A program made the position numbers and the translations under genes. Shown here piece after piece: positions 12,959-23,833 of a DNA stretch of 49,641 nucleotides (its first letter is position 1; the number at the start of each line of letters is the position of its first letter). A model generated the notes under the pieces. The model was not told the DNA's origin. It did not search any database and saw nothing but the letters and a program-made list of their open reading frames with translations. This DNA comes from Oerskovia enterophila (lineage in GTDB: Bacteria > Actinomycetota > Actinomycetes > Actinomycetales > Cellulomonadaceae): positions 1 through 49,641 of the forward strand of contig NZ_MAQA01000037.1 of the NCBI RefSeq assembly GCF_001692445.1. Direction: 5' to 3'.

Positions 12959-15562
12959 TCACCCGTCCTCGCACCCCGCGACCGCGAGAGCCCCGTCCCG
13001 CACGACGAGCGCGAAGGTCCCGCATCGGTCCGTGCGGAGGACTGCGGCTCCCACGCCCGCGTAGAGGTCGAGGGCCTCCTGAGTAGGGTGCCCGTACGTG
13101 TTCTCGCCCGAGCTGACGATCGCGACCGCCGGGCTCAGCGTCGCGGCAAGGCGTGCGGACTGGACGCGCGAGCCGTGGTGCGCAACCTTGACGACGTCGA
13201 CCGACGGGACGCCCGCGCGGGCTCGCAGCGTCCGGTCGAGCGTCTCCTGTCCCCCAGCCTCCAGGTCGCCGAGCGCCACGAGCGTGAGCCGCGGGGTCAC
13301 GACACGCAGCGCGATGCTCGCGTCGTTGGCTCCCCCGTCGGCCTCGGCGAGACGGGGACGTCCGTCTCCGGAGGCGCCGGGACCGGGCGTGGAGCCCGCC
13401 TGCAGCACCTCCCACGACACGTCGCCGAGCGTGCCGCCCGCACCGGGTTCGGCCACCTCCACGGGAACACCTCGGTCGGCGAGGTCGTCGAGCACCCACT
13501 CAGCCTGCTCTGCGGGGTCACCGAGCCCGGTCACGAGCGCTCGTCCCACCTGGCGCCCGTCGAGCACCGCACCGAGCCCCCCGACGTGGTCGGCATGGAA
13601 GTGGGTCAGGACGAGCAGGTCGAGGCGCTCGATCCCCAGGTCGTCGAGGCACCGCCCTGCGGCGTCTCCCGCCGGACCGACGTCGATCATGAGTCCGCGC
13701 CCGTCGCCGGTCCGGACCACGAGCCCGTCCCCCTGGCCGACGTCGCACGCGGCCACGGCCCAGTCCGCCGGGACGTCCCGGCCGGCCGGTGCGATCCAGC
13801 GGGGCCACGCGATCACCACGCACCCGACCGCTGCCACGGCGACCACGGCCCACGCCGCGACGAGGCGCAGGGTCGCGCGCCGCCGTCGGGCAGCCAACGC
13901 CTCCCGGACGCCCGCGCGCACCGCCGTGCGCCACGTGTGCGGCCAGCCGCTCCCCCGGCTCCACGGGACCCGCACGCCCAGCAGGCCCGCCACATGCCGC
14001 CAGCGCCACACCAGGACCAGCGCCGCGAGGGTCAGCAGGGCGAGCGCCACCGCTCCCAGCGCACCACCCGGCCACGGCACGCGCGCCCCGGGCAGCCCGG
14101 TGAAGAACCGGGCGACCGCCGCGATCCACCAGGACGCGAGGCCCGCGGGCCACGCGAGCACGACCCCTCCGAGCGGGAACCAGGGGGCCACGAGCGTGGC
14201 GAGCACCCCGAGCACCGTCGCGGGCACGAGTGCGGGCGCCGCGACCAGGTTCGCCGGTACGGCGTACGTCGCGATCGACGGGTCGAGCAGGACCAGGACC
14301 GGCGCGCACGCGAGCTGGGCCGTGAGCGGGACCGCGAGCGCGAACGCGGGCCCCTTGCCGATCCACGGCGCGAGACGTCGTGCCACGGGCTGGGTGCCCA
14401 GCACGAGGGCGGCGGTCGCGACGCTCGACAGCACGAACCCGTACGAGCGCGCGAGCGACGGGTCGAGCACGAGCAGCACGACGACGACGGCCGCGAGCGC
14501 GGGCACAGCGCGCGAGGGACGCCCCAGCCCGATCCCGACCAGCCCGACCACCCCCATGGCCGCGGCACGCAGCACGCTCGGGTCGGGATGGACGAGCAGC
14601 ACGAACCCCGCCATGACCGCGCCAGTGACCCCGATGCGCACACCGCGCGGCGCCCGGGCCAGCGCGCACAGCGCCGTCACGGTCGCCACGACGATCGCGA
14701 AGTGGCCGCCCGAGACCGCGGTGACGTGCGTCAGGCCGGTCGTCCTGAGGGCCGCGTCGAGCTCGTCGTCGATGCGCGAGGTGTCGCCGACCGCGACGCC
14801 CGGGAGCAGCGCACGGGCGTCGGCGGGCAGACCGTCCGAGGCCGTCAGCAGGTCCGCGCGGAGCACGCCCACGACGCCCAGCGCCCGGGAGGGCGGCGCG
14901 GTCACGACCGGCGGCCCGCTCGCGACGAGGGTGGCCACCGTCCGGTCGCCGGGGCCGGCAGGCAGGAGCCGGCCCGACGCGCGGACCTCGGCCCCGTAGT
15001 CGGCCTCGCCCCAGGCGAGATCGCCCAGCACGCCGATCCGGCCCCCGCCCGGCGCGACGACACCTCTCCCCTCGACCGTGGTCAGGTCCAGGGCCGTGCG
15101 GACGCTGTCCGACGCGCCCGACCACGGGTTCACGACCACGACGGGCTCCTGGACGACCCGTCCCACGACCTCGACCGTCGCCCCCTGGCCCGCGAGGTCC
15201 GCGGCTCCCCCACGCTCCCGCGCGACGAGGTCGGCCGTCCCGCCCAGCAGGACCGCGAGCGCGCACGCCGCGACGAGGACGCACTGACCGAGCCCACGGG
15301 GTGGGCGGGCCCGCCGCACGAGCAGCAGCATGCCCATCAGCGCGAGCAGTCCGGCAGCGGCCGCCGCTCCCACGAGGGCCGTCCTGGCCCCTGCCGAGGT
15401 GAGCCACCACGCGACTCCCCAGGCCACGAGCGCACCCGGGACCAGCCGCAGGTCGGTCGCCGAGACCTGGCGCGGCGTGGGCACCGGGGCCACGCCCGGA
15501 GCGGGGATCGTCGGGGCGCTGGCGGGCACAGGGGCGCCTCTGGTTGTGGATCGGTTCCCCAC
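12959..15562 (-). CDS. comEC: ComEC/Rec2 DNA uptake channel
   Basis: 867 residues. ComEC is the inner-membrane channel that takes single-stranded DNA into the cell. Order: a short cytoplasmic Pro-rich start, 2-3 TM helices, the DUF4131 OB-fold region, the multi-TM competence domain (with HVTAVSGGHFAIV), then a C-terminal metallo-β-lactamase domain from ~residue 600 with ACDVGQGDG, THFHADHVGG, GDLEAGGQ and VAHHGS. All metal-ligand motifs are present, so the nuclease-like domain looks intact. The GTG start follows the comEA stop by one base. Many actinobacteria keep this gene without known competence. Confidence 0.93.
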   Translation of the reverse strand: MGNRSTTRGAPVPASAPTIPAPGVAPVPTPRQVSATDLRLVPGALVAWGVAWWLTSAGARTALVGAAAAAGLLALMGMLLLVRRARPPRGLGQCVLVAACALAVLLGGTADLVARERGGAADLAGQGATVEVVGRVVQEPVVVVNPWSGASDSVRTALDLTTVEGRGVVAPGGGRIGVLGDLAWGEADYGAEVRASGRLLPAGPGDRTVATLVASGPPVVTAPPSRALGVVGVLRADLLTASDGLPADARALLPGVAVGDTSRIDDELDAALRTTGLTHVTAVSGGHFAIVVATVTALCALARAPRGVRIGVTGAVMAGFVLLVHPDPSVLRAAAMGVVGLVGIGLGRPSRAVPALAAVVVVLLVLDPSLARSYGFVLSSVATAALVLGTQPVARRLAPWIGKGPAFALAVPLTAQLACAPVLVLLDPSIATYAVPANLVAAPALVPATVLGVLATLVAPWFPLGGVVLAWPAGLASWWIAAVARFFTGLPGARVPWPGGALGAVALALLTLAALVLVWRWRHVAGLLGVRVPWSRGSGWPHTWRTAVRAGVREALAARRRRATLRLVAAWAVVAVAAVGCVVIAWPRWIAPAGRDVPADWAVAACDVGQGDGLVVRTGDGRGLMIDVGPAGDAAGRCLDDLGIERLDLLVLTHFHADHVGGLGAVLDGRQVGRALVTGLGDPAEQAEWVLDDLADRGVPVEVAEPGAGGTLGDVSWEVLQAGSTPGPGASGDGRPRLAEADGGANDASIALRVVTPRLTLVALGDLEAGGQETLDRTLRARAGVPSVDVVKVAHHGSRVQSARLAATLSPAVAIVSSGENTYGHPTQEALDLYAGVGAAVLRTDRCGTFALVVRDGALAVAGCEDG

Positions 15563-15563
15563 C

Positions 15564-16765
15564 TCAGACCCGCACCTGGTCGCGCAGCCTCGCGAGCAGC
15601 GCGTCGCCGATCCCGCTCACCTCCCCGAGCTCCTCGACGCTCGTGAACCTCCCGTTGGCCTCGCGCCACTCGACGATCCGGGCCGCGAGCACGGGCCCGA
15701 TCCCCGACAGGGCGTCGAGCGCGGTCTGGTCCGCCGAGTTGAGGTCGACGGGTCCGGCCTCGCTGCCCGGCACGGTCGCGGGACCGGGCGCCGCGGCGAC
15801 GACCTCCCCCGGGCGGGGCACGACGATCTGCTCGCCGTCGACGACCTCGCGCGCCAGGTTGACGCCCGCGAGGTCCGCCTCAGCCGTGGCGTCCCCTGCG
15901 GCGGCGAGCGCGTCGGCACGCGTGACCCCTCGGGCACGGTCACGAGCCCGGGAGCACCCACCGCGCCGACCACGTGCACGACGACGTCGCTCGCCTCGGT
16001 CGCACCGGTCGCCCCGACGTCGCTCGCCTCGGTCGCACCCGGCGCGGTCGAAGACCCGTCGTCCGAGGCCCTGGTCTCGCTCGACGCCTGCCCGCCCGGC
16101 CCGGCGCCGCCCTCGGAGGCGGTCGCCGGGTCGGCGAGCGTCGCCACAGGGCGCAGGTCGCCATCTCCCCGAAGGGTCCACGCGCCGACACCGACCGCGA
16201 GCAGCAGGACCGCGACCGCCGCCACCACGGCCGTCCGCGCGGCCACGGACCAGCGGCGGGGACCGCCGTCGGGTACGTGCTCGAATCCCGCGTGCGACGT
16301 CGGGTGGCCGTTCGCCGCGGTGTACGCGGCGGCGACCGCGTCGAGCGCGCCGCGCGTCCCGGCGGGGCCGTCCTGCACGCTCGACGGCCGTGGGCCCCCG
16401 TCGTCCAACCCTCGACGTGAGGTCGAGCGTAAGGGGCCGCGTCCCTCCTCACCGGGCCCTCGACCGTCGGTCGAGGGTTCGGTCGCCACGCCCGCCGAGA
16501 CGCTCCACCACGCCGGTTCCGGCCCGGGGTCCTGCCGCTCCTCCGGCCTCAGGTCCGGGTCGAGAGTCACGGACGAGAAGCCGTCCGCAGGCTCGGCCCC
16601 CCGCACCGACGGGGCCGAGGCACCCCCGACGGCCGCGGGCCCGGGGGCCGCACCCGGGACGCTCCGCAGCCTTCGCAGCCGGGCCGCGCCGTCCTCGCCC
16701 GGCGGCTCGGCGAGCGGGTCAGCAGGCGTCGGGTCGTGCGGGCGGCGCACGCGGGAGAAGGTCAC
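15564..16765 (-). pseudogene. comEA: ComEA-type DNA-binding protein, frameshifted
   Basis: Read from GTG 16765, the frame encodes a ~165-residue disordered tail, one TM helix (WSVAARTAVVAAVAVLLLAV region), an acidic/Ser linker and the start of an SLBB domain (VVVHVVGAVGAPGLVTVPEG), then shifts. The rest of the SLBB (ADALAAAGDATAEADLAGVN) and the helix-hairpin-helix domain (DLNSADQTALDALSGIGPVL, then VSGIGDALLARL) lie in another frame ending at 15564. Restoring one C/G in the two-base run near 15917 rejoins them as a 400-residue ComEA of normal layout. ComEA binds incoming double-stranded DNA outside the membrane. Either a true mutation or a base-calling error; the downstream half shows no further decay. 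Confidence 0.85.
15982..16039. repeat. 25-bp direct repeat within comEA (33-bp period)
   Basis: Identical 25-bp copies occur at 15982-16006 and 16015-16039, starting CGACGTCGCTCG. They encode the repeated GATEASDV in the periplasm-side linker just before the SLBB domain. The period is 11 codons, so copy-number change would keep frame. Confidence 0.75.
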
Positions 16766-17825: not shown

Positions 17826-17832
17826 CCGAGAC

Positions 17833-19746
17833 ATGCCCGACGACGCAGCCCCCTCCCCCGCAGAGCTCGCCGCACTGAAGGCCGCCGCCGCACAGGCAGC
17901 CGCCGAGGCGGCCGAGGCGAAGGCAGCCGCGGCCCAGGCCGCGCTCGAGGCGGCGCAGGCCGCTGCAGCCTCGTCGGCCCCGGAGGCGTCAGCCGCTGGC
18001 GCACCGTCGGGACCCGCCGACCCGACCAGGTCCGAGGCAACCGCCGAAGCGAGCGCCGCACCCGCGGACGCTCCGCCGTCGGGCACCTCCCCCGGGCCGC
18101 TCGAGGGGTACCCCGCCGAGGTCGCCGCGGGCTACGCCACCAAGGGCGGGACGCTCGCGCTCGGCGCGCTGCTCGAAGCGCCCGACCGGACGCCCGGCGA
18201 CCCCGTCCCACGCGCCGACGTCCAGGTCGGGTTCGCGCTCGCGATGCTCAACCGGCACGGGCTCGTCGCCGGGGCCACCGGCACGGGCAAGACCAAGACG
18301 CTGCAGGGCATGACCGAGGGACTCTCCGACGCCGGGGTGCCGACGTTCGTCGCCGACATCAAGGGCGACCTGTCCGGGCTCGCGGTGCCCGGCGCGAGCG
18401 GCGAGAAGATCCTCGAGCGGACCGCGAGCATCGGGCAGGACTGGAAGCCGACCACCTATCCGGTCGAGTTCTACTCGCTCGGCGGGCTCGGCAAGGGCAT
18501 CCCGATCCGGACGACCGTGAGCGACTTCGGGCCCCTGCTGCTGTCCAAGGTGCTCGGGCTCAACGACACGCAGGAGTCGAGCCTGGGCCTGATCTTCCAC
18601 TGGGCCGACACGCAGGGCCTCGCGCTGCTCGACCTCAAGGACCTGCAGTCGACCATCGCGTACCTCACCTCGGACGACGGCAAGGCCGAGCTCAAGGGCA
18701 TCGGCGGGCTGTCCGCGGCCACGGCCGGGGTCATCCTGCGCGAGATCGTGACGCTGCAGGCACAGGGGGCGGACGTGTTCTTCGGCGAGCCCGCGTTCGA
18801 CACGACCGAGCTCCTGCGCGTCGCGTCCGACGGCCGCGGCACCGTCTCGGCGCTCGAGCTGCCCGCCGTCCAGGACCGGCCCGCGCTCTTCTCGACGTTC
18901 CTCATGTGGCTGCTCGCGGACCTGTACCAGGACCTGCCCGAGGTCGGCGACCTCGACAAGCCCAAGCTCGTGTTCTTCTTCGACGAGGCGCACCTGCTCT
19001 TCACGGGCGCGTCCAAGGAGTTCCTCCAGCAGGTCGTGCAGACCGTGCGCCTCATCCGTTCCAAGGGCGTGGGCGTGTTCTTCGTGACGCAGAGCCCCAA
19101 GGACGTGCCCGCCGACGTCCTGGCTCAGCTCGGCAACCGGGTCCAGCACGCGCTGCGCGCCTTCACGCCCGACGACGCCGCGGCCCTGCGGGCGGCCGTG
19201 CGGACGTTCCCCACGTCGCCGTACGACCTGGAACAGCTGCTCCAGTCGCTCGGGACCGGCGAGGCCGTGGTCACGGTGCTGACCGAGAAGGGCGCCCCCA
19301 CGCCGGTCGCCTGGACCCGGGTCCGGGCGCCCCAGTCGTCCATGGAGCCGGCGCCCGAGACCGTGATCGACGGGATCGTGGCGGGGTCGCCGCTCGCCGC
19401 GCGGTACGCCGAGGCGGTCGACAACGAGTCGGCGTACGAGCTGCTCACCGCGCGCATTGCCGCGCAGCACGCCGCGGCCGAGCAGGCGGAGCTCGCCGAG
19501 CAGCTAGCCAAGGAGCAGGAGGCCGCCCAGAAGGAGGCCGACAAGGCGGCCAAGAAGCAGGCCGACGAGCTCGAGAAGATGCGCGCCAAGCTCGAACGGG
19601 ACGCGGCGCGCGCCGGGAGCGGGACGCGGACGAGCACGGCCCGGAAGTCGACCGCGTCGTCGGGGCTCGACAAGTTCCTGGGGTCGATGGCGACGCAGCT
19701 CGGCCGGGAGATCACGCGGACGGTGTTCGGGACGCGGCGGCGGTGA
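17833..19746 (+). CDS. HerA-like ATPase (DUF853, YjgR family)
   Basis: 637 residues. The ATPase core carries Walker A GATGTGKTKT, Walker B LVFFFDEAHLLF and FFVTQSPKDVP, the pattern of the DUF853/HerA-like FtsK-superfamily motor. Residues ~1-95 are an Ala/Glu-rich coiled coil followed by a Pro/Ser linker. A second Ala/Glu/Lys coiled coil lies near 555-605, before a basic C-terminus. Cellular role unproven; relatives are thought to be hexameric DNA translocases, but no NurA nuclease is adjacent. I took the ATG at 17833 because the frame upstream overlaps the divergent degV promoter. Confidence 0.88.
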   Translation: MPDDAAPSPAELAALKAAAAQAAAEAAEAKAAAAQAALEAAQAAAASSAPEASAAGAPSGPADPTRSEATAEASAAPADAPPSGTSPGPLEGYPAEVAAGYATKGGTLALGALLEAPDRTPGDPVPRADVQVGFALAMLNRHGLVAGATGTGKTKTLQGMTEGLSDAGVPTFVADIKGDLSGLAVPGASGEKILERTASIGQDWKPTTYPVEFYSLGGLGKGIPIRTTVSDFGPLLLSKVLGLNDTQESSLGLIFHWADTQGLALLDLKDLQSTIAYLTSDDGKAELKGIGGLSAATAGVILREIVTLQAQGADVFFGEPAFDTTELLRVASDGRGTVSALELPAVQDRPALFSTFLMWLLADLYQDLPEVGDLDKPKLVFFFDEAHLLFTGASKEFLQQVVQTVRLIRSKGVGVFFVTQSPKDVPADVLAQLGNRVQHALRAFTPDDAAALRAAVRTFPTSPYDLEQLLQSLGTGEAVVTVLTEKGAPTPVAWTRVRAPQSSMEPAPETVIDGIVAGSPLAARYAEAVDNESAYELLTARIAAQHAAAEQAELAEQLAKEQEAAQKEADKAAKKQADELEKMRAKLERDAARAGSGTRTSTARKSTASSGLDKFLGSMATQLGREITRTVFGTRRR

Positions 19747-19766: not shown

Positions 19767-19828
19767 CCGTCGAGTGCGTGATTCGGCTGCGACACGCCCG
19801 GCGAGTCGCAGCCGAATCATGCACTCAA
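19767..19828. repeat. Palindromic repeat copy A (bracketing the DUF559 gene)
   Basis: 62 bp that match copy B (20801-20862) at 60 positions, in the same orientation. The core is an inverted repeat with 22-nt arms, 19772-19793 (starts GAGTGCGTGATT, ends GGCTGCGAC) and 19805-19826, around an 11-nt centre ACGCCCGGCGA; one G-T pair breaks perfection. It lies between the convergent HerA-like and DUF559 genes, contains most of the DUF559 stop codon (19825-19827), and could also act as a bidirectional terminator. Confidence 0.9.
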
Positions 19829-20736
19829 CGGGCCAAGGCCGCCCGCACCCGCCGGATGAACCTCTCGGGGTGTCGCATCACGTCGTCGGCCGTGACCGTG
19901 ATGATCAACCAGCCCGCCTCCTCGAGCCGCTGTCGACGCTCGACGTCACGTCGCCACGTCCCGGGGTCGGTGCGGTGGACGTCCCCGTCGTACTCGATCG
20001 CGATCCGGAGCGCCGGGTAGGACATGTCCGGGAGGGCGAGGAAAGATCCCGCCCGGTCCAGGGCGGGCACGTTGACCTCCGGGCACGGCAGCCCTGCGTC
20101 GACCAGGATCATCCGGGTCCGCGACTCCATCGACGAGTCGGTTCCGCCGACGACGTGCTCGATCGCCACCCGCGACGCCGCAAGTCCCCGCATCCTGTGG
20201 CTGCTCCCGAGGAGCCTGCGCATCTCGACGACCGAGGTCGCAGGGTCCTTCCGGCGTGTCATGGCGTCTCCGAGGACGACCAGCTCGTTCACGCTCAGCC
20301 CGTGCGAGAGGTGCAGCCACGTCTGCGCCGGAGTGGTGACCGGGATCCCGTGCCACGTCGTGACGGCGAGAGCCGGTTGGGTGCAGGTGTGAGCCACCAG
20401 GTCGTCGCGCTGCGGTCGCAGGTCCCTGCGTGGCACGACGACGTGCAGCCGCTCCCCCGGCCCACCACCCGCCTCGGCCGACGACCGGTCCAGCCGCCAG
20501 GGCACCTCGATCCCGAGGAGCCGTAGTGCCGTGACGTGGCTGAACGCCGCAGCGGACGGCAGGATCTCGAGCGCAGCCCGGCACCGAGCGGCGATGCCGT
20601 CGATGCTGCCCGCCGGTACGCGGACGCCGCGGGTCGGGGCCTCCCACCAGGGCCGACCGAGCTCGTGGCGTGTCAGTCCGTGGCTCGCGGCGTCCCGCGA
20701 CCGGAGCACGACGGACGGCACCTGAGGGTTCGACAT
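19825..20736 (-). CDS. DUF559 (Vsr-like, PD-(D/E)XK) endonuclease-domain protein
   Basis: 303 residues. The N-terminal ~45 residues resemble the winged-helix start of AbiEi-type proteins (GLTRHELGRPWWEAPTRGVRVP). The C-terminal ~90 are DUF559: LRIAIEYDGDVHRTD, then DVERRQRLEEAGWLIITVTADDV, with Glu and Asp-Gly-x-x-His as likely catalytic residues of the Vsr/PD-(D/E)XK fold. Such proteins are numerous in actinobacteria and their job is unproven. The ATG at 20736 is preferred over an in-frame upstream extension that runs into the palindrome. The gene is bracketed by repeat copies A and B, and its stop lies in copy A. Confidence 0.8.
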   Translation of the reverse strand: MSNPQVPSVVLRSRDAASHGLTRHELGRPWWEAPTRGVRVPAGSIDGIAARCRAALEILPSAAAFSHVTALRLLGIEVPWRLDRSSAEAGGGPGERLHVVVPRRDLRPQRDDLVAHTCTQPALAVTTWHGIPVTTPAQTWLHLSHGLSVNELVVLGDAMTRRKDPATSVVEMRRLLGSSHRMRGLAASRVAIEHVVGGTDSSMESRTRMILVDAGLPCPEVNVPALDRAGSFLALPDMSYPALRIAIEYDGDVHRTDPGTWRRDVERRQRLEEAGWLIITVTADDVMRHPERFIRRVRAALAR

Positions 20737-20800
20737 GCCGCCACGATGCCGCCTTTCGCACGCCCAGGGGTGGGTCATGCGGTCATCTGTGGACAACCTG

Positions 20801-20862
20801 CCGTCGAGTGCGTGATCCGGCTGCGACACGCCCGGCGAGTCGCAGCCGAATCACGCACTCAA
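20801..20862. repeat. Palindromic repeat copy B (bracketing the DUF559 gene)
   Basis: Direct copy of 19767-19828 with two differences in 62 bp (T/C changes in each arm). Arms 20806-20827 and 20839-20860, centre 20828-20838. It lies 64 bp upstream of the DUF559 start and 10 bp beyond the leuS stop, where it could terminate leuS transcription. The distance between copies A and B is 1,034 bp. Confidence 0.9.
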
Positions 20863-20872
20863 GCGACGAACG

Positions 20873-23833
20873 TCAGGCCGGGACCACGTTCACGAGCTTG
20901 GGCGCCCGCACGATCACCGTGCGGATCCCGCGCCCGTCGAGCGTGCGCTGCACGTTCGCGTCCGCCAGGGCCAGCTCACGCAGCTCGTCGTCCCCGATCG
21001 AGGGCGAGACCTCGAGCCGGCTGCGGACCTTGCCCTGGACCTGCACGACGCACGTCACGGTGTCCTCGACCAGGTACTCGTCGAGCGCGACCGGGAAGGG
21101 CTCGTGCGCGAGCGACTGCGGGTGACCGAGCCGGGACCACAGCTCCTCCGCGATGTGCGGCGCGATGGGCGCGACCATGAGGATCAGCGGCTCGATCGCC
21201 TCGCGGGGCACCCGGTCCAGGCCCGTGAGGTGGTTGTTGAGCGCGATGAGCTTGGCGATCGCCGTGTTGGAGCGCATGTGCTCCATCTCGACGCGCACGT
21301 CGGCGATGGTGCGGTGGACCAGGCGCAGGGTCGCGACCTCCGCGGGCTCCTCCGAGACCGTCGTCTCGCCCGAGTCCTCGGACACGACGTTGCGCCACAG
21401 CCGCTGCAGGAAGCGCTGCGAGCCGACGACCGCGCGCGTGTCCCAGGGGCGCGACAGGTCGAGCGGTCCCATGGACATCTCGTACACGCGGAACGTGTCG
21501 GCGCCGTAGGCCTCGTACATGTCGTCGGGCGTCACGACGTTCTTGAGCGACTTGCCCATCTTCCCGTACTCACGGTTGACGGGCTCGCCCTTCCACAGGT
21601 ACCGGACCTCATCGCCGCTGCTCTCCTCGACGACCTCTTCCGCGGGCACGTACGCGCCACGCGAGTCGGTGTACGCATAGGCCTGCACATAGCCCTGGTT
21701 GAAGAGCTTGTGGAACGGCTCGGTGCTGGTCACGTGCCCCAGGTCCAGGAGCACCTTGTGCCAGAAGCGCGCGTAGAGCAGGTGCAGCACGGCGTGCTCG
21801 ACGCCGCCCACGTACAGGTCGACACCGCCCGCGGGCCCGGCCGTGGCGTTGTGCCCGGGGCCGGTCCAGTACTTCTCGAGCTCGGGCGAGGCCATGTGCT
21901 CGGTATCCGCCGGGTCGAGGTAGCGCAGGTAGTACCAGCACGACCCTGCCCAGTTGGGCATGGTGTTGGTGTCGCGGCGGTAGGTCTTGGGGCCGTCGCC
22001 CAGGTCGAGCGTGACGTTGACCCAGTCCTCGTTGCGGCCCAGCGGCGGCTCGGGCGAGGAGTCGGCGTCGTCCGGCTCGTAGGTGCGCGGCGAGTAGTCC
22101 GGGACCTCGGGGAGGTTGACGGGCAGCAGCGAGTCCGGCAGCGCGATGGGCTGGTCGTTCTCGTCGTAGACGATGGGGAACGGCTCGCCCCAGTAGCGCT
22201 GACGGCTGAAGAGCCAGTCGCGCAGGCGGTAGGTCACGGTGCCGCTGCCGATGCCCTTGGCCTCGAGCCACTCGATCATGGCGCGCTTGGCGTCGGGCAC
22301 GCTCAGGCCGTCGAGCGAGATCTCGTCGTTGGACGAGTTGACGATCTCGCCGTCGCCGGTCCAGGCGCCCTCGTGGTCCTCGGGGGCCGCGACCGTGCGG
22401 ACCACGGGCAGCTCGAAGGCCTCGGCGAACGCGTGGTCGCGCTCGTCGCCGCCGGGGACCGCCATGATGGCGCCCGTGCCGTAGCCCATGAGGACGTAGT
22501 CCGCGGTGAACACGGGGATGAGCACACCGTTGACGGGGTTCACGGCGAGGTGGCCCGTGAACACGCCGGTCTTCTTGCCCGCGTCGGCCTGGCGCTCGAC
22601 CGCGGTCTTGGCGGCGGCCTCCTTGCGGTAGGCCGCGACGGCGTCGATCGGGGTCGCGTGCCCGCCGGTCCAGACGTCGTGCGTGCCGTCGGGCCACTCG
22701 GCCGGGACCTCGTCGAGCAGCGGGTGCTCGGGCGAGACGACCATGAACGTCGCGCCGAACAGGGTGTCGGGGCGCGTCGTGAAGACCTCGACGTCGCCGA
22801 CGGGGCTGCTCCCGCCGATCGCACCGTCGATCGCGAAGCGCACGGTGGCGCCCTCGCTGCGACCGATCCAGTTGCGCTGCATCGACTTGACCTTCTCCGG
22901 CCAGTCGATGAGGTCCAGGTCGTCGGCCAGGCGGTCCGCGTACGCCGTGATGCGCATGTTCCACTGGCGCAGGCTGCGCTGGAAGACGGGGAAGTTGCCG
23001 CGCTCGGAGCGACCGTCGGACGTGACCTCCTCGTTCGCGAGCACGGTGCCCAGGCCCGGCGCCCAGTTCACGGGCGACTCGGACACGTAGGCCAGGCGCT
23101 GCGGGTCGATCACGGCGCGCTGCGCGACGCGGTCGAGGTCATCCCAGCGGGTGCCCTCGGGGTGGCCGGGGACGGCACGCGTACCCGCGGCGTACTCGGC
23201 CACGAGCTCGGTGATGGGGCGCGCACGGCCCGTGCCGCCGTCGGGACGCTCGGCGTCCTCGTCGTACCAGGCCTCGAAGATCTGCAGGAAGATCCACTGG
23301 GTCCAGCGGATGTACTCGGGGTCGATCGTCGCGAACGAGCGGCGCGAGTCGTGCCCCAGGCCGAGGCGGCGCAGCTGGCGCTTCATGTTGGCCATGTTGG
23401 CCTCGGTCGTGACGCGCGGGTGCTGACCGGTCTGCACCGCGAACTGCTCGGCGGGCAGGCCGAACGCGTCGTAGCCCAGCGCGTGCAGCACGTTGTCGCC
23501 ACACATGCGTCGGAAGCGTCCGACGACGTCGGTCGCGATGTACCCGAGCGGGTGGCCCACGTGCAGGCCCGCGCCCGAAGGGTACGGGAACATGTCCATG
23601 ATGAAGTACGGCGAGCGGCCGTCGGCGTGCCTGCCCTCGCCGTCGGTGAGGTGCCCCGAGGGGTTGGCCGCGAAGAACGTGCCGCGCTCCTCCCACGCGT
23701 CCTGCCACCGGAGCTCGATGTCCTGCGCGAGGGCGGGCGTGTAGCGGTGGGAGGTCGTCTCGAGCGAGGCCGCGGGGGCGGTGTGCGCGGACTCGGCGGG
23801 GTTCTCGGGGGCGGGGTTCTCTGGCGTGCTCAC
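20873..23833 (-). CDS. leuS: Leucyl-tRNA synthetase
   Basis: 986 residues, class I synthetase that charges tRNA-Leu. The HIGH motif is HVGH (91-94) within the PYPSGAGL context; the KMSKS motif is KMGKS (758-762). Between them lies the CP1 editing domain with [16 protein letters not shown]. The C-terminal anticodon-binding and C-terminal domains end in [11 protein letters not shown]. The Ser-to-Gly change in KMSKS is common in actinobacterial LeuRS. The N-terminus has a ~27-residue Pro/Ala/Glu extension. A -10 box TAAACT ends 6 nt before the GTG, so the message seems leaderless; I see no T-box. Confidence 0.97.

Follow-up and report, generated by a model that had tools for sequence, protein, structure and literature searches.

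REPtrons, as portrayed in excerpts of two accounts (PMC2817692, PMC3733652), consist of an enzyme gene flanked by palindromes, with palindrome copies lying near 3' ends of genes, an element edge that provides stop codons, and enzymes and palindromes that co-vary. Among homing endonucleases, I-Bth0305I binds its target, almost 60 bp long, as a dimer, according to the passages of a review that deal with it (PMC3943268). In addition, the protein family MTES_1575 was named after a large multidomain protein, which the pertinent section of PMC3710099 treats among conflict systems. A search of PMC, with subscription journals and preprints outside its scope, found no paper linking small MTES_1575/DUF559 genes to palindromes. 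The locus described here would seem to operate as a hybrid of a REPtron and a homing gene, and by the tests made it belongs to neither.

The window, i.e. the whole 49.6-kb stretch analysed from Oerskovia enterophila (NZ_MAQA01000037.1), harbored two 62-mers (19767-19828 and 20801-20862) in direct orientation at an offset of 1034 nt, with 97% identity (two mismatches), each containing inverted arms of 22 nt around a centre of 11 nt. A previous sequence-only reading had reported near-identical direct 62-bp repeats of this architecture 1,034 bp apart, enclosing a lone gene with an AbiEi-like wing and a Vsr-type domain and containing its stop codon in one repeat; these points were borne out, the domains by profile matches and the stop by the TGA at 19825-19827, which overlaps the end of the copy-1 palindrome at 19826. 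Both palindromes topped the ranking of short-range inverted repeats in the window and showed folding z-scores of -9.4 to -9.9 as single-stranded DNA. The only gene between them lies on the minus strand, and the HerA-like gene and leuS on either side are convergent (Table 1). Translation from the ATG at 20736 yields 303 aa, and an alternative GTG at 20829, within the palindrome, would yield 334 aa.

Table 1. Coordinates of the palindrome-nuclease cassette and its flanking genes in the window
Feature	Position	Strand	Remarks
Class-A palindrome copy 1, HerA side	19772..19826	.	55 nt; two stop-codon bases of the nuclease come from its edge
Class-A palindrome copy 2, leuS side	20806..20860	.	55 nt
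Nuclease gene, 303 aa	19825..20736	-	AbiEi-like winged-helix half plus Vsr-like MTES_1575/DUF559 domain
DnaA-box-like TTGTCCACAG	20787..20796	-	between palindrome copy 2 and start codon
HerA-like ATPase gene	17827..19746	+	flanking context
leuS	20873..23833	-	flanking context; name from the sequence-only reading; relatives aligned

Pfam analysis revealed that the window protein passed the cut-off of MTES_1575 (PF18741; 39.9 bits, cut-off 38.2) and scored 20.7 bits for DUF559 (cut-off 20.6), and MTES_1575 fits better than DUF559 as its family name. Its N-terminal half matched AbiEi profiles (best E 2e-7). Among 12 aligned homologues, MTES_1575 was detected in 11, DUF559 in eight and AbiEi models in some, no HUH/Y1 transposase (Transposase_17) was present among their Pfam matches, and the residues E204, D237, E248 and D250 were invariant in all 12. 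A profile built from these homologues matched PDB 3r3p, described as 'mobile intron protein', over about 60 residues (E 9e-4) and reached Vsr at E 0.8-0.9 only, whereas a search with the single sequence gave no hit. The 3r3p entry is taken here to be I-Bth0305I. A weak match to the candidate defence model PDC-S37 was also obtained (E 4e-4), NCBIfam gave nothing near cut-off for the nuclease, and the five Rfam matches all fell far under their gathering scores. The AlphaFold model of the nuclease (mean pLDDT 39.6) was set aside. Homologue searches via the Pfam family alone were dominated by large helicases. Six plasmid records matched at 28-31% identity, phages contributed one partial match, and the 34 stretches fitting the pattern in viral contigs included no relatives. 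MTES_1575/DUF559 proteins resemble the window protein in a Pfam score above the cut-off; the name-giving MTES_1575 protein, as the relevant portion of PMC3710099 presents it, is a large HEPN-transglutaminase fusion, unlike the small gene in the window.

The sequence-only reading had further proposed that the cassette entered or duplicated a palindrome between the HerA-like gene and leuS, and that this junction be checked in relatives. Among seven species (G000, the window's own genome, and G001-G006, six other genomes of the genus; the palindrome class names A, B, C and G are ours), one relative, G001, had exactly one palindrome and no gene, which supports the proposal. The nuclease gene with class-A palindromes was present as open cassettes in G000, G006, G002 and G005, with dN/dS of 0.14-0.21 among the four open orthologues. 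The single class-A-like palindrome of G001 is flanked on its left like one G006 copy and on its right like the other, and occupied and empty alleles with continuous flanks are thereby represented by G001 versus G006 and G000, at one junction and with one empty site. In G004 a homologue was inverted, lay between class-C palindromes and had lost conserved residues through an internal deletion that kept the frame, and G003 carried neither the cassette nor a class-A palindrome, with a different gene and an unrelated hairpin. HerA identity separated G000, G001 and G006 from the rest, whereas leuS identity did not; because the two group the species differently, G001 may have lost a cassette by deletion and need not be a never-occupied site.

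The junction nuclease has a history unlike that of its flanking genes. Its dS between G000/G006 and G002/G005 was 0.73-0.83, compared with 0.15-0.24 for leuS and HerA, and the order was reversed between G002 and G005 (0.051 for the nuclease versus 0.127 for leuS and 0.187 for HerA). Between G000 and G002, identity was 0.62 in the 5' region, 0.79 in the coding sequence, 0.93-0.95 in the palindromes and 0.92-0.94 at the ends of the flanking genes. The spacers outside the palindromes, 10-25 nt long at this junction, were also diverged in this pair just beyond the palindromes (0.44 over 16 nt and 0.60 over 10 nt).

The association of palindromes with this nuclease recurs at other loci, is real, and is undescribed in the literature searched (PMC). 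Examination of 29 homologue loci (28 genes) in the genus showed hairpins that matched across the two flanks in 13, a hairpin on a single flank in 10 and none in four, and one was mis-scored. The four homologues without flanking hairpins (L096, L012, L109 and L095) are possibly domesticated or decayed. Palindrome class tracked protein subfamily in the 21 of 28 genes that were classed, by eye; same-class proteins were at least 77% identical (28 pairs) and different-class proteins at most 61% (182 pairs). At the level of the order, homologues with E values of at most 1e-30 were present in 113 of 149 genomes, and 89 loci from this homologue list were compared with 160 control genes. Similar hairpins occurred on both flanks of 24/89 nuclease loci and 0/160 controls (Fisher p 2e-12; 17 loci at a strict cut), and a repeat common to both flanks, with no hairpin required (score >=35), at 63/89 and 0/160, respectively, leaving 26/89 loci below the threshold. 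The pattern was weaker outside the order, with flank repeats at 8/19 loci and a similar hairpin pair at 0/22. The order-wide correlation of enzyme and palindrome was weak (Mantel r 0.113, p 0.020) because the palindromes are no longer alike once protein identity drops under about 50%. An inner motif GACACGCC common to all families was ruled out (14/89 versus 9/160). Chance was likewise ruled out as the source of the repeats by their copies in the own genome, the zero count of the reversed control and the 24/89 versus 0/160 hairpin pairs.

The own genome harbored a second cassette of the same design (L027, G000:C4:133940-135043), with a 49% identical protein and class-G palindromes starting GAGAAGTGAG, which adjoins an enolase-like gene cluster and occupies the same place in five relatives. 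Further homologues or remnants, each with palindromes of yet other classes, were observed at G000:C8:47819-51712 (L191), G000:C93:749-4660 (L190) and G000:C5:5212-8532 (L011). Moreover, TCCACAG was located within 180 nt upstream of 65/89 nuclease genes and downstream of 2/89, compared with 2/160 upstream of controls (1/85 of the controls with an upstream gap). It occurred mostly as the DnaA-box-like T(T/C)(A/G)TCCACAG, presumably the DnaA box consensus, and in both orientations.

Palindrome copies were also dispersed in the genomes. The 62-mer had 37 matches in the own genome, both strands counted, and class A had 18 copies there at up to two mismatches and 5-13 in the other six genomes, with 0 for the reversed control pattern in all seven. 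Genomes with a class-A nuclease held 18, 5, 11 and 12 copies, and those where it is absent held 13 (G001), 6 (G003) and 6 (G004). A single scan of the genome collection, possibly omitting near relatives of the window, detected the exact 27-nt class-A arms in 10 stretches from four named Oerskovia species. Copies of classes A, B and C start with GAGTGC. The own genome holds the GAGTGCGGAG palindromes of classes B and C, and no cognate nuclease was found there; these copies are orphans of lost or absent cassettes. Class G, in which every listed copy is 56 nt, amounted to 75 copies across six genomes of the genus that encode the cognate nuclease (14, 17, 17, 18, 3 and 6), and the remaining genome, which lacks this nuclease, had 0 (control 0). 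The sequence-only reading had asked whether further palindrome copies adjoin DUF559 paralogues; the other class-A copies do not, and sit at 3' ends of ordinary genes, many of them convergent. Own-genome palindrome pairs on C5, C9, C12, C27 and C36 were considered as further nuclease cassettes and rejected, the enclosed genes not being nuclease matches.

The cassette resembles RAYT/REPIN systems in that a single enzyme gene lies between palindromes of which further copies are scattered over the genome, and in that enzyme and palindrome phylogenies agree, palindrome classes matching protein subfamilies within the genus. It differs in having a winged helix-turn-helix and Vsr-like nuclease in place of the Y1/HUH transposase of RAYT, and in lacking the GT(A/G)G head of REPs, with GAGTGC or the class-G start instead. 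Compared with REPtrons, the palindromes are single, 55-66 nt long, nearly symmetric and present in tens and not hundreds of copies per genome, with the flanking pair in direct register. Thus, the earlier description as a REPIN-like cassette stands for the layout, with a nuclease replacing RAYT, but fails for strict REPIN membership, which would require a RAYT enzyme.

The favoured interpretation is a homing-endonuclease-like element whose target would be its own palindrome, in a RAYT/REP-like layout with an unrelated enzyme, and we regard the chances of its being right or wrong as about balanced. Homing is favoured because the homologue profile matches 3r3p and the I-Bth0305I target approximates the palindrome length. 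Similar to EDxHD homing endonucleases of the I-Bth0305I type, the element shows a nuclease domain that may be related, judging by the profile match over about 60 residues, empty and occupied alleles, and a pattern of decay and re-invasion, and the dimer-bound target of nearly 60 bp given in that part of the review (PMC3943268) compares with the palindromes here. In contrast to this type, the gene is free-standing with its own palindromes as bounds and not in an intron or intein, the predicted target is symmetric and present in many genomic copies, and an AbiEi-like winged helix is added; each occupied locus still holds two palindromes. Subfamily-matched palindromes, the flank repeats at 63/89 loci, dispersed single copies, the restriction of class-G copies to the six genomes with that nuclease, occupied, empty and decayed states, and the separate nuclease history speak for homing. 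Against it stand the class-A palindromes remaining in G001, G003 and G004, the age of most comparable lone palindromes, the 26/89 loci below threshold and the 0/22 outside the order, the short structural match for which a profile was needed, the divergence of the spacers outside the palindromes, and the G001 site that may be a deletion. At comparable orthologous junctions, most lone palindromes were common to several species and are therefore old. At a helicase junction, class A was found in G000 (C36:2613-2667) and G001, and class C or a C-like palindrome in G006 and G005 (compared with L060 and L063), which fits replacement and equally independent origin; G006 and G005 have there, besides the palindrome, an extra transglutaminase-like gene, named by reading its translation.

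Binding, cutting, copying and replication timing are activities that we infer for the nuclease, as follows. The enzyme, probably dimeric, would bind the palindrome, a symmetric site about 55-66 bp long, and cut it near the centre, and repair off a cassette-bearing copy would convert one palindrome into palindrome-gene-palindrome. Since the target is symmetric, the gene could enter in either orientation. If the direct palindromes recombined with each other, or if the gene decayed, a lone palindrome would be left and could be targeted anew. Such copies would last mainly at gene 3' ends, where a hairpin does no harm or is of use and where they may act as terminators. The DnaA-box-like site may couple expression to the replication cycle, which would be the least secure of these steps.

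A RAYT-like dispersal, in which the nuclease mobilises the palindromes in double-stranded, cruciform or single-stranded form and the flanking pair represents the ends of the parent element, appears unlikely. The layout, the subfamily-specific palindromes and the 3'-end copies match REPtrons as outlined in the excerpts of PMC2817692 and PMC3733652, and a dispersed family also exists in a second genus of the family, in which GTGGGCGYGA palindromes numbered 21, 21, 2, 10, 20, 27, 1, 0, 0 and 1 in 10 genomes (control 0) and flanked nuclease loci in two of them. Such dispersal is also consistent with symmetric changes in both arms: among 41 class-G copies, whose positions 1-10 were fixed by the search pattern, the sequence at positions 11-15 varied with pairing kept, and 88 both-arm changes were counted, compared with 32 on average and at most 47 after shuffling. 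However, the absence of HUH/Y1 domains among the Pfam matches and the low copy number (class A, 5-18 per genome) argue against it, and none of the lone palindromes could be proved to be a clean new insertion: in one case the missing copy points to a deletion, and in the other, a G002 copy absent in G000, further length changes surround the site.

A family of passive bidirectional terminators, spread by ordinary recombination and with the nuclease gene merely lying between two of them, is considered improbable, although the placement of copies agrees with it. Of 46 dispersed copies of all classes compared with called genes in two genomes (25 + 21), none lay inside a gene, and 26 were between convergent, 18 between tandem and two between divergent genes, against a background of 43 convergent and 57 divergent among 205 gaps of at least 60 nt; 34 of the 44 copies with a 3' neighbour were within 20 nt of the stop codon or overlapped it. 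Like intrinsic terminators, the palindromes are GC-rich hairpins at gene 3' ends, but they lack a T run, form sequence-specific families and are tied to nuclease subfamilies. A terminator scan picked up neither window palindrome, no T run following the hairpin, and passive spread leaves the subfamily specificity and the 63/89 versus 0/160 flank repeats unexplained. The sequence-only reading had set scattered copies, unlinked to the nuclease and always at convergent ends, against its own proposal; the location at 3' ends, often convergent, was indeed found, whereas the subfamily-specific palindromes provide the nuclease link. Very improbable, finally, is a defence or toxin-antitoxin-like module, in which an AbiEi-like regulator is fused to the nuclease and the palindromes serve as operators or self marks. 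The AbiEi and PDC-S37 matches point in this direction, as does the discussion of the MTES_1575 name-giver among conflict systems in the cited section of PMC3710099, but operators would not be expected to lie scattered at the ends of unrelated genes as these palindromes do, and the window pair encloses one gene with no partner toxin.

Returning to homing, the cassettes could tentatively be seen as a new class of selfish elements in Actinomycetota, although this broader claim is rather doubtful: a winged helix-turn-helix plus Vsr-like nuclease would home, in either orientation, on dispersed copies of its own palindrome, enzyme and palindrome co-diverging into many specificities per genome, with cutting or expression tied to replication via the DnaA box. 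If the nuclease acts on the palindrome, a lifestyle of enzyme plus dispersed palindromes would have arisen outside HUH transposases, a widespread gene family of unknown role would gain one, and a set of naturally matched enzymes and targets would become available for long symmetric DNA sites. How palindromic repeats arose in these actinobacteria also becomes directly testable. In addition, ORF translations at 12959-16181 of the window resemble, by eye, the competence proteins ComEC and ComEA, and DNA uptake could aid the spread of such cassettes.
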